From Pollutimonas subterranea (GTDB lineage Bacteria; Pseudomonadota; Gammaproteobacteria; Burkholderiales; Burkholderiaceae_B): 64,000 nt of DNA. Location of the stretch: the NCBI RefSeq assembly GCF_002849655.1, contig NZ_PDNW01000008.1, positions 1-64,000 of the forward strand, given 5' to 3'. Position 1 is the stretch's first letter. Every line of letters starts with the position of its first letter. Positions 1 to 5,512 of the stretch are shown here, piece by piece. The notes below the pieces were generated by a model that was not told the DNA's origin, made no database searches, and was given only the letters and a program-made list of their open reading frames with translations. The position numbers and the translations under genes are program-made.

Positions 1-1
1 C

Positions 2-118
2 CGCATCGAGCCGCGACAGCGAAAACGAAGGCCAAAATCCTACCCATGGCTGAAGAAGCCGCGTGACCTCGCGCGCGACGACATCATTCGCTACGGGCGC
101 CCGCAGCGGCCTAAGTAA
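2..118 (+). CDS. Transposase C-terminal fragment, probably IS4 family (partial)
   Basis: An open frame enters from the left edge and stops at TAA 116-118. The 38 visible residues are very basic, with the motif EPRQRKRRPKSYPWLKKPR about 35 residues before the stop. I recognise this kind of tail (EPR, KRRPK, Y/H-P-L, KPR) from IS4-family transposases, but the catalytic DDE domain lies outside the window. The frame overlaps the 3' end of the broken SDR gene on the other strand by eight bases, so the end of the insertion sequence must lie around 111-150. No inverted repeat can be paired because the other end is not visible. It could be another DDE family with a similar basic tail. Confidence 0.5.
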   Translation, partial: RIEPRQRKRRPKSYPWLKKPRDLARDDIIRYGRPQRPK

Positions 119-626
119 GTGCCATTCCCATTAGGCCCCACTTGCTGGCGTGATAAACGCTGGCGTTGGGCCAGGCCCGACGCGCGGCCGTCGACGCAAT
201 ATTGATGATGTGCCCGCCCGGCGCCAGATGTTCGAGCCCATATTTGGCCAACAAAAACGGACCCGTCAGGTTCGTGCGCATGACCCGATCCCAGTCCGAC
301 GTCGCCAGCTCACGTATGCTTAGCGTTACATCGATCCCGGCGTTATTCACAATAGCGTCCAGACGGCCGAACAAAGTAACGCCGCCATCCAGCACCCGGC
401 GAACCTGGTCTTCGTCACCGACATCAAGCTGGAAAGCGCAAGCCCTGCCTGACGCCGCATTGATGCGCTCAGCAACCGCCTTCGCCGACGACTCATTGAT
501 ATCCGTTACAACAATATGCGCCCCTTCAGCCGCCAGCGTTTCGCATATTGCTGCACCTAGGCCGCGTCCCGCTCCGGTGACCAGGACGGAGCGTCCAGCC
601 ACGGTCTGGTAATCATAGGCATCCAT
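111..626 (-). pseudogene. Short-chain dehydrogenase/reductase, 3' end lost to an insertion sequence
   Basis: Classical SDR. The Rossmann motif TGAGRGLG is at residues 17-24, NNAG at 94-97, and the catalytic Ser145, Tyr158 and Lys162 are present (YHASK). The frame ends at residue 171, only nine residues after the catalytic lysine, where family members usually continue to about 250. The missing part normally forms the substrate loop and the last strands, so the product is unlikely to fold. The truncation point coincides with the transposase tail entering from the left, so insertion is the simplest cause. It is the third gene of a minus-strand unit after the BON protein and the glycosyltransferase (48 bases behind the latter). 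The substrate of the intact enzyme is unknown. Confidence 0.8.
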
Positions 627-674: not shown

Positions 675-1961
675 TCAGGCGGTGAGGCGGGTTTCAGCGC
701 CCCAGTGCCGTGCGGGCACTGGCGCCATCGAGCTTTCGTACAAGCCTTCAAACACGTTCGCCAACTGTGTACCCACGCAGCGCCAGCTAAATAGCTGATC
801 GGCACGTTGAGCTCCGGCCTTGCCCATACGAGCCGACAGGCCGCGATCGAGCGCCAGGCGCGCCAGGCGTTCCGCCAGCGCATCGGGATCTTTGGGCGGG
901 ACCAGGAAACCAGTCACACCATCTACGACGGTATAGCGGATGCCACCCGTGTCGGACCCCACCACGGGCCGCGCGCACGCCATTGCTTCGACGGGGGTAA
1001 TGCCAAACGGCTCATACCAGGGTGTTGTCGCAAACACATCGCTGGCGCAGTAGTAGCGGCGCAGCTGACTGCGGCCGCGCCGTCCGGTGAATTCCACGAA
1101 ATCCAAAACGCCCTCTTCCCGTGCGATGGATTTAAGGCGCGCCAGTTCCGGCGTCGATTCCTCCGAGGGTGCCGTGGTGTTGCCCCCCACGATGCACAGG
1201 CGGGCATCCACCGAGTATTGCTTGCGCAGTCGGCTCAGGCCGCGAATGACGTTATCGACGCCTTTTCTGGGCACCATGCGCCCGAGCTGCAAAATGTAGA
1301 AGGCGTTCGGGTCCCATCCCAATGAGGCGCGAACAGGTTCCCGCTCCATGGGCCACATTTCCTGCGGATCAAATCCGCAAGGAACCATGCTGATATGGTC
1401 CGGATCCGCGCCGTACAGCTCGATAAGATCACGCCGGTCTTGTGGGCACTCGGCAATGATCCGGTCAGCCGAACGAACGATTCCATCTTCGATCTCAAAG
1501 CGGGAATCAGGGAATTTGTCGGCTTCGGCCTGATGCTGGCGGCGCACGCGTCCCAAGGCATGGAAGGTGACGGCCAAAGGAATTCCGAATTGGCGCGCCA
1601 CCGGCAGCGCGGCCATGGCCGACATAAAGAAGTTGGCATGGATCAGATCGTACGAATGGCTGCATTTGCCAAAATAACCAAGCATGAACTCACCAAACTG
1701 ATCCATGTAAGGCAACATGTCTTCCTTGGGAAGGTAGCGCGCTGGTCCGGCAGGGACATGAATTATTCTCAATCCCTTGCCCCACTCCAGTTCGCGCGGC
1801 AGCTGCGCATTATCCAACCGGGTGAAGACATCAACGGCATACCCCTGTGCGGCCAGTTGGCGCGCCACTTGGGCTACATAAACGTTCTGTCCACCGCTAT
1901 CCACGCTTCCAGCCTGCGCAATTGGCGACGCATGCTCGCTGACAATCGCAACTCTTCGCAT
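675..1961 (-). CDS. GT4-family glycosyltransferase (GT-B fold)
   Basis: 428-residue GT-B enzyme of the glycosyltransferase 1/GT4 family, which transfers a sugar from a nucleotide-sugar donor. The N-terminal half has a glycine-rich acceptor region (SGGQNVYV near residue 23). The C-terminal half has the donor-site signature GRMVPRKG and the retaining E-x7-E motif (Glu317 and Glu325 in EPFGITPVE). The N-terminus resembles sucrose-phosphate-synthase-like bacterial enzymes. The start at 1961 is chosen because GGAG sits six bases upstream; longer frames with earlier ATGs lack such a site and run into the BON gene. It lies 22 bases downstream of the BON gene and probably shares its transcript. Acceptor and product are unknown; an exported glycan or compatible solute is possible. 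Confidence 0.85.
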   Translation of the reverse strand: MRRVAIVSEHASPIAQAGSVDSGGQNVYVAQVARQLAAQGYAVDVFTRLDNAQLPRELEWGKGLRIIHVPAGPARYLPKEDMLPYMDQFGEFMLGYFGKCSHSYDLIHANFFMSAMAALPVARQFGIPLAVTFHALGRVRRQHQAEADKFPDSRFEIEDGIVRSADRIIAECPQDRRDLIELYGADPDHISMVPCGFDPQEMWPMEREPVRASLGWDPNAFYILQLGRMVPRKGVDNVIRGLSRLRKQYSVDARLCIVGGNTTAPSEESTPELARLKSIAREEGVLDFVEFTGRRGRSQLRRYYCASDVFATTPWYEPFGITPVEAMACARPVVGSDTGGIRYTVVDGVTGFLVPPKDPDALAERLARLALDRGLSARMGKAGAQRADQLFSWRCVGTQLANVFEGLYESSMAPVPARHWGAETRLTA

Positions 1962-1983
1962 GATGCTCTCCATTATTGTTATG

Positions 1984-2568
1984 TCAACGCACGTAGCCGC
2001 CCGTCTCATCGCGCTGTACGGTAATGCGGTTATCGACATCAACGACGCCTGTGCAATCCTCGGCGCAGTCCTCGATGGAATGCTTGATGCGCCGGTCCTT
2101 TACCGTGCCTTCGAGCGTCACTTTGGCCTCCGCCACATTCACCGACACCTCGGATACATCGAGACCGCTATGACTCAGCCTTTCGCATACGTCTTCGCGG
2201 ATACGCTCGTCGGAACGCGTATAGCCTTTAGGTTGAATACGCTGGCGTCCGTAAACATGTTGCTGACGCTCGTTGCGCCAGCCCTGTTGCTGGCCGCCCT
2301 GCGAACCTTGGTGGTTTCCACCGTACCCGCGTCCGCCTTCGAAATGCTCAATCTGCTGACGCTGAAAGCGCGGATCCTCGTTCGCAAACCCGCCATAGCT
2401 GCTTTGTCCCGGATCAGCGCTGCGACTGCGCAGCTGCTCGCCCTGTTCCGTGGCATGCACGCCCGCGCTTCGTCGTGTACCGTGTCTCTCGTCGCCGGAT
2501 CCAGGCCCTTGCCAATCGCTCTCTCGACCCTTGGAGGGTTGCCGGTTTCGTCGATCGTCGTTCGTCAT
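1984..2568 (-). CDS. BON-domain protein with glycine/glutamine-rich N-terminus
   Basis: 194 residues. The first ~115 are hydrophilic and low-complexity (rich in Gly, Gln, Arg, Ser). The last ~75 form one BON domain, a fold found in OsmY and related stress proteins that is thought to contact membranes or ligands. No signal peptide is evident with the start chosen here. ATG at 2568 is preceded by AAGGAG six bases upstream, which decides it over the longer frame starting at 2637. It is the first gene of a BON - glycosyltransferase - SDR unit, divergent from rpoN, and a -24/-12 type promoter sequence lies about 65 bases upstream on its strand. A stress or envelope role is inference from family and neighbours. 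Confidence 0.75.
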   Translation of the reverse strand: MTNDDRRNRQPSKGRESDWQGPGSGDERHGTRRSAGVHATEQGEQLRSRSADPGQSSYGGFANEDPRFQRQQIEHFEGGRGYGGNHQGSQGGQQQGWRNERQQHVYGRQRIQPKGYTRSDERIREDVCERLSHSGLDVSEVSVNVAEAKVTLEGTVKDRRIKHSIEDCAEDCTGVVDVDNRITVQRDETGGYVR

Positions 2569-2632: not shown

Positions 2633-2648
2633 AGCAAACTGTGTGCCG
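2633..2648 (-). promoter_or_regulatory. Candidate sigma-54 promoter for the BON/glycosyltransferase unit
   Basis: Read on the minus strand the site is CGGCACACAGTTTGCT. Against the -24/-12 consensus TGGCACG-N4-TTGCW it keeps GGCAC and TTGCT, with the obligatory GG and GC exactly ten bases apart. Transcription would start near 2622, giving a leader of about 55 bases before the ATG at 2568. It lies in the same intergenic region as the rpoN-facing site. Two consensus positions differ, so it is weaker than its divergent partner. Confidence 0.55.
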
Positions 2649-2860: not shown

Positions 2861-2876
2861 TGGCACGACCATTGCG
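2861..2876 (+). promoter_or_regulatory. Sigma-54 promoter upstream of rpoN (consensus match)
   Basis: The bases TGGCACGACCATTGCG match TGGCACG-N4-TTGC completely, preceded by C as in the extended consensus. GG (2862-2863) and GC (2874-2875) are ten bases apart, the spacing RNA polymerase with sigma-54 requires. The predicted start is near 2887, about 40 bases before the rpoN start codon. This implies that the sigma factor gene is itself transcribed by sigma-54 holoenzyme. Confidence 0.75.
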
Positions 2877-2927
2877 TGTATTCATCTGGATAGCTCAAAA
2901 GGTTCCAACTAATGAAGGAGACGTCAA

Positions 2928-4433
2928 TTGACCCAGATCACCTACGAGCTGCAAGCGCGCCAGCAGACCAGCCTCACTCCCCGACTGCAACAGTCCGTCA
3001 AGCTCCTGCAGATGTCCACACTGGATTTCAGCCGCGAAGTGGCGGAGGCGATTGCGAACAACCCGTTTCTTGAAGAGCCTGAAGAATCCGGTTCCGAAGA
3101 AAAATCCGGAAAGGCAGAACATGGCTTTGACGACGCACCAGCGTTTGCTGATAACGAGGCCGCGCCCGCCATGGAGCAGTATGTCGACACGGATGCTGGA
3201 AGCGAGGCGGCTGCGCCGGAAACGGAATATCTTGCAAGCAGCCTGGCTGACGCACCGGCCTACTCCGGCGACTATCCCACTCAGCGCAACTCCGATCAGC
3301 CAGACAGCGATGTAGGCCAATGGGCGCGCAGCACCGGCAGCCTTCAGGAATCGCTGCGTGCCGATCTGTGCAGCTACCAGCTGAACGAGCGGGAACGCTA
3401 TTTGACCGAGTACATCATCGAAGCCCTCGACGATGACGGCTATTTGCGCGTGCCTTTTTCCGAGTTGGCCAGTGCTCAGGAATTCTCGCACCCTGCCAGC
3501 GACGAGGAATGGGAGATCGCCCTGCGCCTCGTGCAGCAGCTGGGCCAGCCCGGCCTGGCGGCTCGCAACCTTTCGGAGTGCCTCACCCTGCAATTAAAGG
3601 CCCTGCCGGACCATGCGCCGGGCAAGGCAATCGCCTTGCGCATTGTGGCCGACGCCATCGAGAGACTGGGTCGCTGCGACTATGCGGGCCTGGCCAAGGC
3701 ACTTTCCTGCACTGAAGAGAACATCCAGGAAGCCTGCGTGCTGATACGGACGCTCTCGCCGCGCCCCGGCGGCCAGTACTCGGCGGTGGATCCGTCGTGC
3801 TACGTGATACCGGATGCCATCGTACGCAAGGTAGGCCGCCTCTGGGTTGCCACGTCGAATGAAGAGGCGACGCCGCGTGCCCGCCTGAACAGTGCCTATG
3901 CGCAGCTCTTTCGCCAGAGCCGCTACGGCGACCGCTCGCTGATGGCCCAGGCGCTGCAAGAAGCACGCTGGCTAATGCGCAGCCTGGAGCAGCGCAAGAG
4001 CACCATACAACTCGTCGCACAGGCCATCGTGGCTCGCCAGCAGACATTTTTCGACTATGGCGAAATTGCACTGCGTCCCATGATGCTGAGCGAAATCGCG
4101 GACGAACTGGGCATGCACGAGTCGACGATTTCCCGCGCCACCAGCAACAAGTATCTGGCTTCTCCGCGCGGCATCTATGAGTTCAAATCCTTCTTCTCGC
4201 GCGAGCTCGCCACGCAATCGGGCGGTACCTGCTCGGCCGTTGCCGTGCGGGCCCTGATTCAGGAAATGATCGATGCCGAAGACCCCAAGGAGCCATTATC
4301 GGACGTGGTCCTGGCGCGTAAACTGGCGCGCGAAGGCGTAGTGGTGGCACGGCGCACGGTATCGAAGTACCGCGCCCAGATAAAATGCCCGCCTGCCGAT
4401 CTGCGTCGCCGGCCAAGTTATCCCCAGCCCTAG
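2928..4433 (+). CDS. rpoN: RNA polymerase sigma-54 factor (stand-alone paralogue)
   Basis: 501 residues, the usual length for sigma-54. Region I (about 1-48) is Gln/Leu-rich with LQQSVKLLQMSTLDF and NNPFLEE. An acidic region II covers about 50-125. Core-binding and helix-turn-helix parts follow, and the RpoN box is ARRTVSKYR at 474-482 (usual form ARRTVAKYR). The start is TTG 2928 with AAGGAG seven bases upstream; no nearby ATG fits. The housekeeping rpoN of proteobacteria is normally followed by hpf and ptsN and preceded by lptB. Here neighbours are a BON/glycosyltransferase unit and asparaginase, so this is probably a second copy. A consensus -24/-12 promoter precedes it. No enhancer-binding activator of the NtrC type is in the window. 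Confidence 0.92.
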   Translation: MTQITYELQARQQTSLTPRLQQSVKLLQMSTLDFSREVAEAIANNPFLEEPEESGSEEKSGKAEHGFDDAPAFADNEAAPAMEQYVDTDAGSEAAAPETEYLASSLADAPAYSGDYPTQRNSDQPDSDVGQWARSTGSLQESLRADLCSYQLNERERYLTEYIIEALDDDGYLRVPFSELASAQEFSHPASDEEWEIALRLVQQLGQPGLAARNLSECLTLQLKALPDHAPGKAIALRIVADAIERLGRCDYAGLAKALSCTEENIQEACVLIRTLSPRPGGQYSAVDPSCYVIPDAIVRKVGRLWVATSNEEATPRARLNSAYAQLFRQSRYGDRSLMAQALQEARWLMRSLEQRKSTIQLVAQAIVARQQTFFDYGEIALRPMMLSEIADELGMHESTISRATSNKYLASPRGIYEFKSFFSRELATQSGGTCSAVAVRALIQEMIDAEDPKEPLSDVVLARKLAREGVVVARRTVSKYRAQIKCPPADLRRRPSYPQP

Positions 4434-4516
4434 GGCACGCCGCCCCATCCCGTCCAGCATTGCCATGACACCGATGCTGCGGGATAATGCGGCAACTTTG
4501 CCGACGCGTATGAAAA

Positions 4517-5512
4517 ATGACCATGCCTTCTCTTCCGGGTATCGTGCTGCTGGGAACGGGCGGCACCATTGCCGCCACGGCACCTGGCACGACCACACTG
4601 ACCGACTACACCGTCACACAAGGCATCGATTCGCTCCTGACTGCCGTACCGGAAATCAACGCGCTGGCGAGGCTGCGATGCAGCCAGGTCTTCAATGTCG
4701 AAAGCCATGCAATCACCAACAAGATGCTGCTGAAACTCGCGGGCAGAGTCAACAAGGAATTGTCTGATCCCGCCGTCGACGGCGTGGTGATCACACACGG
4801 AACGGACACACTGGAAGAGACGGCTTATTTCCTGAACCTCACCATCAAAAGCCGTAAACCGGTGGTCGTGGTGGGCGCCATGCGTCCGGGCTCGGCGATC
4901 AGCGCGGACGGGCCGCTGAACCTGTTCAATGCCGTCTTGCTGGCTGCCAGCAAGCAGGCTCAAGGACACGGCGTTCTTGTCATGCTGAACGACCGAATTT
5001 CCGCCGCACGCTACACCAGCAAAACCCATAGCACCCAGCTTGATACCTTCCGTTCCCCCGATCAGGGCTACCTCGGGCAGGTCCATAACGGCAAGATCCA
5101 TATCTTCCAGACACCGACGACCCGGCATACGACCCAAAGCGACTTCGACGTGGCCGGCGTCAAATCGCTTCCATGGGTGGACATCATCTACGATCATCAA
5201 GACGCCGGCGTGCATCTTTATGAAGCATCGATCAAGGCGGGTGCGCAAGGTATCGTCATTGCGGCCACGGGCAACGGAAGCGTCTCCACGACGGTAAAAA
5301 AAGGGGCGCGGCTGGCCGCCAGGAGCAATGTGGTGTGCGTGCGATCCTCGCGTGTTGGCGCGGGTGTCGTCTCTGAGAGCGATGCGGATGACAAACTGCG
5401 ACTGGTATCGGGCAACTCCCTGAATCCCCAAAAGGCCCGGATATTGTTGATGCTGGCATTGGGCAAGACGCGCGACCCGAAAACAATCCAGTCTTATTTT
5501 GATCAGTACTGA
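4517..5512 (+). CDS. ansB: L-asparaginase (type II-like)
   Basis: 331 residues. It hydrolyses L-asparagine to aspartate and ammonia. The two catalytic threonine motifs are present: TGGTIA at 14-19 and THGTD at 93-97, followed by LEET. The sequence follows the E. coli-type asparaginase/glutaminase family throughout. There is no signal peptide, so unlike E. coli AnsB it is probably cytoplasmic. ATG 4517 and ATG 4523 are both possible starts and neither has a strong ribosome site. It is transcribed in the same direction as rpoN, 84 bases downstream, and converges with the pseudouridine synthase gene. Glutaminase side activity is possible and cannot be judged here. Confidence 0.88.
   Translation: MTMPSLPGIVLLGTGGTIAATAPGTTTLTDYTVTQGIDSLLTAVPEINALARLRCSQVFNVESHAITNKMLLKLAGRVNKELSDPAVDGVVITHGTDTLEETAYFLNLTIKSRKPVVVVGAMRPGSAISADGPLNLFNAVLLAASKQAQGHGVLVMLNDRISAARYTSKTHSTQLDTFRSPDQGYLGQVHNGKIHIFQTPTTRHTTQSDFDVAGVKSLPWVDIIYDHQDAGVHLYEASIKAGAQGIVIAATGNGSVSTTVKKGARLAARSNVVCVRSSRVGAGVVSESDADDKLRLVSGNSLNPQKARILLMLALGKTRDPKTIQSYFDQY

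Follow-up and report, generated by a model that had tools for sequence, protein, structure and literature searches.

The sigma-54 holoenzyme forms stable closed complexes and requires an activator, an enhancer-binding protein (EBP). For Ralstonia solanacearum, the available text of PMC4676750 lists in its Table 3 a putative RpoN promoter for rpoN2 (Rsp1671), together with two EBPs, Rsp1667 and Rsp1668, that carry the motif GSFTGA; the same table also names RpoN2 as a possible NtrC target. According to this account, RpoN1 and RpoN2 are reportedly not interchangeable, and an rpoN2 mutant showed wild-type growth on all compounds, no metabolic role having been found. In E. coli lacking rpoN, the RpoN2 of R. 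solanacearum restored functions of the NtrC and AtoC type (PMC4676750), which indicates, as far as that account goes, that this factor is not closed to ordinary activators. In Rhizobium etli, the prxS-rpoN2 operon is activated by NifA (available text of PMC3538637). The nifU2-rpoN superoperon of Rhodobacter capsulatus has a NifA-RpoN-activated promoter ahead of rpoN and a weak constitutive promoter, as summarised in PMC6925177 (citing Cullen 1994). A broad survey reports that sigma-54 promoters before rpoN are enriched in several classes, beta-proteobacteria included (PMC12316311). Judging from the R. solanacearum listing and this survey, in the available text of both, self-regulated rpoN is thus already a known kind. 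The literature that we searched, with most subscription journals outside it, held no account of a three-gene module, of a divergent promoter pair with a palindrome, of weak starts or of a glucan cluster, and, by title or abstract opening, no description of an RpoN2 module in the Alcaligenaceae.

We have analyzed a 64-kb stretch of Pollutimonas subterranea DNA (positions 1 to 64,000 of contig NZ_PDNW01000008.1, hereafter the window) from a genome of 4.54 Mb in 68 contigs. The closest named relative by RpoN2 protein is Pollutimonas nitritireducens (Alcaligenaceae; 91%). The original prediction was that an rpoN paralogue in the window is preceded by a sigma-54 promoter and activates its own transcription.

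Results

The rpoN2 locus

The following features were delimited in the window:

111 to 626, minus strand: N-terminal part of a short-chain dehydrogenase gene, the remainder lying on contig C25 beyond the probable insertion (comparison with the nearest relative, whose intact gene gave the domain)
675 to 2042, minus strand: glycosyltransferase gene downstream of the BON gene, open reading frame from the first in-frame start (domain search, comparison with relatives)
1984 to 2568, minus strand: gene of a BON-domain protein, divergent from rpoN2 (domain search)
2633 to 2648, minus strand: predicted divergent -24/-12 sigma-54 promoter (CGGCACACAGTTTGCT) of the BON gene (scan, conservation of a divergent box)
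2693 to 2714, no strand assigned: conserved palindrome TTCTTACACGTATCGGTAATTT, candidate upstream activator site (conservation in orthologues)
2861 to 2876, plus strand: predicted -24/-12 sigma-54 promoter of rpoN2 (TGGCACGACCATTGCG) (sequence, conservation)
2915 to 2930, plus strand: ribosome-binding site AAGGAGA (2915-2921) and TTG start codon (2928-2930) (sequence)
2928 to 4433, plus strand: rpoN2, sigma-54 paralogue of 501 aa with AID, core-binding and DNA-binding domains (Pfam domain search)

Positions 2928-4433 are the gene of an intact sigma-54 (RpoN) factor. The Pfam domains PF00309, PF04963 and PF04552, which correspond to the AID, core-binding and DNA-binding domains, all scored above cut-off in its product, and both the RpoN box (ARRTVSKYR) and the HTH (HESTISRAT) are intact. 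Upstream, the letters TGGCACG (2861-2867), ACCA (2868-2871), TTGC (2872-2875) and G (2876) agree with TGGCAYRN4TTGCW at 11 of the 12 specified positions and, as read originally, GG (2862-2863) and GC (2874-2875) stand ten bases apart. The distance to the gene, given earlier as 41 bases, had to be corrected: 52 nt lie between the TTGC and the TTG start codon, 41 fitting the distance from the expected transcript start. Five sites in the window, both strands considered, score 11/12, and two of these (2861, plus strand; 2648, minus strand) share the intergenic region upstream of rpoN2. Genome-wide, TGGCAYRN4TTGC occurs 24 times, as against 7 occurrences of a reversed-pattern control. Boxes of 10/12 are common background and were also found inside genes in the stretches scanned, so that it is position and conservation that bear the promoter claim. 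When applied to controls, the scan found TGGCATGACGCTTGCT 100 nt before R. etli prxS-rpoN2 (p42d) and nothing before canonical Xanthomonas rpoN.

An asparaginase gene (4517-5512) follows rpoN2 on the same strand, as it does at locus L045 and, by eye, in several other relatives. A sigma-70-like promoter predicted at 4460 suggests that this gene has a transcript of its own.

Conservation of the box and of the start codon

A protein scan of genome contigs yielded 28 loci, from which we omitted L063 (upstream DNA cut off) and L070 (Chlorobiota, 33% identity); the remaining 26 and the window make up a set of 27 orthologues. TGGCAY-N5-TTGC is found 54-84 nt before the match start in all 27, where 0.36 would be expected from dinucleotide shuffles, and the spacer and surroundings of the box diverge among orthologues while the box stays. 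We also scored a sample of sigma-54 genes from relatives within the family and, in part, elsewhere in the order (the relatives sample), accepting boxes of 10/12 within 130 nt. By this rule a box precedes 24/24 genes of the RpoN2 clade versus 1/48 other rpoN genes; this sample and the set of 27 overlap in genomes and are not independent. Two (L153 and L143) of six very distant rows, kept apart in the sample, have a box at this threshold, and L150, a member of the wider RpoN2 lineage, has none. Hence the sigma-54 promoter originally predicted before this rpoN paralogue is conserved in nearly the whole RpoN2 lineage, L150 being the exception.

An order-wide search, in which 30 loci were examined, gave the same picture: the box is present at 10/10 loci with PRLQQ or PRMQQ in region I, five of them in new genomes (families f3, f31 and f39), and at 0/18 loci with PQLQQ, one of these having only 75 nt of upstream DNA. 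Locus L344 (PQIVQ) has the box, and L337 was left out. In four Burkholderia plasmid records a box of at least 10/12 precedes the gene, or the beginning of the match, by 63-81 nt, and a Comamonadaceae plasmid has such a box as well.

It had been proposed that the TTG start codon keeps basal output low. Start codons in the relatives sample, picked by a rule of our own (alignment and ribosome site), are TTG in 16, GTG in 7 and ATG in one of the RpoN2-clade genes, that is, non-ATG in 23/24; the orthologue at L049 starts with GTG. For the 48 other rpoN genes the figures are ATG 47 and TTG 1, and the six distant rows all have ATG, as do both annotated Burkholderia RpoN2 genes examined. That TTG and GTG replace each other while ATG is almost missing in the clade fits selection for weak translation and lends the proposal some support; alternatively, the shared start codons may reflect common ancestry.

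RpoN1 and the RpoN2 lineage

The gene was rightly taken for a paralogue, since a search of the genome found one other sigma-54 gene, RpoN1, on contig C61, 37% identical to RpoN2. It was also correct that rpoN2 lies outside the lptB-rpoN-hpf-ptsN context, but this does not discriminate: RpoN1 of this genome and of its close and genus relatives lies outside that context too, adjoining BFD-like ferredoxin and ferritin-like genes (L071:10328-11785; domains tested in G001), so that context is no argument for a special rpoN. In L100, of the same family, the apparently usual rpoN context is kept (hpf domain tested).

We computed two quick trees, with SH-aLRT support only. The first unites the 24 RpoN2 genes of the relatives sample in a single group (support 80). 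For the second we included Burkholderia, other families and the Comamonadaceae plasmid; here 24 rows, among them L150, L153 and the plasmid gene, separate from canonical and RpoN1 sequences (support 88, or 96 without L153). In family f12, genomes G257, G300 and G463 each have two or three sigma-54 genes, whose identity to Burkholderia RpoN2 is 42-46%.

Among the columns that separate RpoN2 from RpoN1 are R19 (23/24), M29 (24/24) and F34 (23/24) in region I, and S479 (22/24) inside the RpoN box. Position 19 is R in 23/24 and K in 1/24 sequences of the family's RpoN2 clade, whereas Q (44) prevails over R (2) among 54 others; RpoN2 of the window has the basic residue R19. Region I, the EBP-contact region, meets the GAFTGA loop of the activators (available text of PMC4676750). 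The DNA-contact motifs differ between RpoN2 and RpoN1 by a single letter each (ARRTVSKYR versus ARRTVAKYR; HESTISRAT versus HESTVSRAT). We considered whether region I alone had changed and rejected this: four of the 14 separating substitution columns fall there, and M29 is absent from Burkholderia RpoN2, in which R19 and F34 recur.

The gene cluster and its activators

Although the gene had been described as stand-alone, in relatives it is part of a cluster with two activator genes. The nearest relative (G003) carries, in one contiguous stretch, genes for a starch-synthase-like protein, GT2, a response-regulator EBP (RR-EBP), PspF-like EBP, epimerase, GT9 and GT2 and then for carbamoyltransferase, GT9, HAD hydrolase, short-chain dehydrogenase, glycosyltransferase, BON protein and rpoN2; for the starch-synthase-like protein, the EBPs and the last glycosyltransferase, domains were assigned on the copies in the window's genome. 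Contig C25 of the latter adds a GlgE gene. The right end of C25 and the left end of the window (contig C67) match adjacent parts of the G003 stretch, with an 11-base overlap, and each continues into non-matching DNA inside the dehydrogenase gene (window 1-626; L271). Probably an insertion splits the cluster between the two contigs, the simplest reading being an inserted element, a candidate IS, with target-site duplication. As the window begins at a contig end, the rest of the cluster was invisible to the original prediction. Boxes also precede other genes of the cluster. One lies about 26-54 nt upstream of a GT2 gene, the same one in the window's genome, G002, G003, G004 and G022; another, about 59-61 nt upstream of the GTG at which the starch-synthase-like gene begins, was confirmed in two genomes, that of the window and G003.

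The RR-EBP and PspF-like EBP genes are divergent on C25, and in the nearest relative both are contiguous with the rpoN2 stretch, the PspF-like gene lying 9.5 kb from rpoN2 in the intact cluster. The PspF-like EBP has no regulatory domain; its gene ends at most 300 nt upstream of rpoN2 in 9/27 orthologues, and in others it lies further off, with the RR-EBP gene divergent from it. A search of the window's genome for EBPs gave ten matches, two weak ones being set aside by score as not true EBPs. Both cluster EBPs have GSFTGA. In the other six full EBPs the motif is GAFTGA (four proteins) or GAFSGA (one), and the sixth shows none that is recognisable. Among copies from relatives, which come from overlapping loci, GSFTGA is found in 38/45 PspF-like and 47/55 RR proteins, and GAFTGA in 7/45 and 8/55. 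We therefore dropped GSFTGA as a strict private code, as 15/100 EBP copies carry GAFTGA. No histidine kinase gene for the RR was found among the tested cluster genes of the nearest relative.

RpoN2 and the RR-EBP are inherited together. Among 200 genomes of the family, RpoN2 is present in 80 and the RR-EBP in 79 (both 77, RpoN2 only 3, RR-EBP only 2, neither 118), when RpoN2 is counted from 51% identity and the RR-EBP from 55%, two of the latter being partial and the table having been compiled by eye; G126, with a partial 48% match, was left out of the RpoN2 count. The RR-EBP thus accompanies 77/80 genomes with RpoN2 versus 2/120 without it (Fisher p 5e-49, a value that ignores shared ancestry). 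The three RpoN2 genomes without RR-EBP are assemblies of 130 to 340 contigs, and one of them (G127) has a cut RR gene at a contig end (L051). In G001, the sole genome of the same genus without RpoN2, there are no close matches to the RpoN2, PspF-like or RR-EBP genes.

The upstream control region

It had been suggested to look for activators with sites in 2649-2860; the likely activators are the products of the two EBP genes on C25, and there is a candidate site. When upstream DNA from six close orthologues was aligned, a single strongly conserved block stood out beyond the box itself: TTCTTAC-N-GGTAAWT, an imperfect palindrome at 2693-2714. TTAC-N5-9-GTAA occurs 30-260 nt upstream of the box in 20/27 orthologues (0.21 expected), and its strict form, CTTACN6-9GGTAAWT, has a single occurrence in the genome, upstream of rpoN2. 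Seven of the 27 orthologues lack it, and in the window's genome none was found beside the boxes of the GT2 and starch-synthase-like genes. The palindrome may therefore belong to a different regulator, or else the two EBPs recognise different sites. We also considered that further genes might be controlled through it, and dropped this idea, since the strict form is unique and the loose form gave 42 rows versus 158 for the reversed control. Twelve of the 42 rows, two of them in the window, gave no locus, and none of the 22 loci examined has a sigma-54 box (10/12) within 300 nt downstream. Separately, a TTAC half-site at 2850-2860 lies at most 16 nt upstream of the -24 box in 10/27 orthologues (3.2 expected); in the window's genome such half-sites are near 2/26 consensus sigma-54 boxes counted, the rpoN2 promoter itself included.

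The palindrome sits between rpoN2's predicted promoter and a second one that faces the BON gene. The latter (CGGCACACAGTTTGCT, 2648-2633) is 80 nt before the BON ATG (2568), and a divergent sigma-54 box is found in 17/27 orthologues (1.32 expected). It is present in 16/18 orthologues in which no PspF-like gene ends within 300 nt upstream of rpoN2, and in 1/9 of those in which one does; that gene arrangement predicts the divergent promoter is as expected if the promoter is real. The real start of the glycosyltransferase gene is probably further in than the first in-frame start at 2042, and this gene is possibly on the same transcript as the BON gene.

Related modules in Burkholderia

In Burkholderia pyrrocinia, RR and PspF-like EBP genes (GSFTGA in both products) and a histidine kinase gene are about 10-13 kb from rpoN2, the kinase gene (HisKA, HATPase and PAS domains) coming after the RR gene. 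The module is neighboured by PRC-barrel, CBS, DUF3008 and DUF1328 genes and by a treY-malQ-treZ-glgX-glgB-treS cluster. Boxes stand before CBS, DUF3175, glutamine-amidotransferase and three hypothetical genes, and no box was found upstream of the trehalose genes. On the B. pyrrocinia plasmid (L308, 16286-23105), sigma-54 boxes precede the starts of six genes in the vicinity of rpoN2 by 59-146 nt, and these genes are a possible regulon. In B. multivorans, the neighbours include DUF892, Ku and ligD.

Discussion

From anatomy, conservation and co-inheritance we infer how the locus may work. The reading that we consider probable is that rpoN2 is a second, specialised sigma-54 gene read by sigma-54 polymerase, and as such the node of a positive feedback gated by EBPs. 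Self-transcription of rpoN2 is likely: sigma-54 RNA polymerase would act at the gene's promoter, and the loop would close once an EBP permits it. The activators would most likely be the RR-EBP and the PspF-like EBP from C25. In their active state they would attach close to the palindrome (2693-2714) and switch on both divergent promoters, at 2861 for rpoN2 and at 2648 for the BON gene and perhaps the glycosyltransferase gene. Basal sigma-54, either RpoN1 or a few RpoN2 molecules made from the TTG start, could prime the loop, after which accumulating RpoN2 would sustain itself and the other sigma-54 promoters of the cluster, those before the GT2 and starch-synthase-like genes. The changes in region I and the altered activator loop perhaps make the RpoN2/EBP pair private.

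A one-way cascade, in which rpoN2 is transcribed through RpoN1 and an EBP but not through its own product, is the strongest rival, and we regard it as unlikely. The rpoN2 promoter may depend on RpoN1 alone, which would count against a self-loop; RpoN1 is kept in all 24 RpoN2 genomes of the relatives sample, consensus-like -24/-12 boxes do not distinguish the two paralogues, and in Cereibacter sphaeroides the paralogues discriminate promoters and activators (available text of PMC11999139). However, the near-identity of the DNA-contact motifs suggests that RpoN2 probably can bind its own promoter. Much less credible is that activator-free sigma-54 polymerase sits on the box and represses rpoN2, a negative autoregulation with another promoter doing the work. 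The stable closed complexes of this holoenzyme would allow it, and negative autoregulation of rpoN is reportedly found in Pseudomonas putida; but nothing like a sigma-70 promoter turned up in a simple consensus scan of 2560-2930, and the upstream palindrome, the divergent sigma-54 box and the co-inherited EBP fit activation better. That the box has no function and matches by coincidence or as a relic is scarcely tenable, for although the reversed-pattern control also scores 7 hits in the genome, chance is ruled out by a box kept at its distance in 27/27 orthologues (0.36 expected) amid diverging surroundings and in 24/24 clade genes versus 1/48 others.

The EBP-gated loop would thus remain the preferred reading, and what it serves can be approached through gene content. 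The GlgE, starch-synthase-like and BON genes here, and the Burkholderia neighbours, make a role in drying, osmotic or general stress a fair guess. A broader proposal, which we put forward tentatively and would not bet on, is that RpoN2, its two activators and the self-amplifying divergent promoter constitute a sigma-54 general stress (desiccation/osmotic) response of the Burkholderiales, insulated from nitrogen control, that would turn on alpha-glucan and trehalose synthesis, surface glycans, proteins of the BON, PRC and DUF892 type and, in some Burkholderia, Ku-LigD repair. If so, a private sigma-54 channel would take the place that EcfG or RpoS takes elsewhere. At the level of the module itself, sequence comparison makes it likely that this is a self-amplifying, perhaps private sigma-54 system of Burkholderiales connected with genes of the alpha-glucan and stress type. 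An extra rpoN paralogue thereby gains a lineage, likely partner activators, a conserved predicted self-regulating promoter and candidate targets. The cluster is common to many related bacteria, and the RpoN2 module spans an order with plant and human pathogens. It also offers a case for how two sigma-54 factors may stay apart: RpoN2 differs in region I, and its likely activators mostly have an altered GAFTGA loop.

Compared with described systems, C. sphaeroides RpoN1-3 are likewise paralogous sigma-54 factors, each with its own EBP (PMC11999139); they differ in their nif, flagellar and xrpA targets, and the word stem 'autoregul' is absent from the available text of that article. R. capsulatus shares a NifA-RpoN-activated promoter ahead of rpoN (available text of PMC6925177), but has a single rpoN in its genome, nitrogen-fixation genes around it and NifA as activator. 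The prxS-rpoN2 operons of R. etli and Mesorhizobium loti have a second rpoN behind a sigma-54 promoter that is activated through an EBP (available text of PMC3538637). The likeness to R. etli drawn in the original prediction holds as an analogy, the same scan finding a box there: like that autoregulated type, rpoN2 here stands behind a sigma-54 promoter. The rhizobial genes differ in having NifA as activator, a nitrogen-fixation setting, second place in an operon and an ATG start, and R. etli rpoN2 falls outside the RpoN2 lineage in our quick tree, on a long branch of unsure placement. Nearest of all is R. solanacearum rpoN2, with a second rpoN, two GSFTGA EBPs and a putative RpoN promoter (PMC4676750), its orthology to RpoN2 here being inferred from this arrangement alone. 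Beyond what the available text of that account contains, the locus described here has a predicted divergent promoter, a palindrome, co-inheritance with its likely activator and a glucan cluster.
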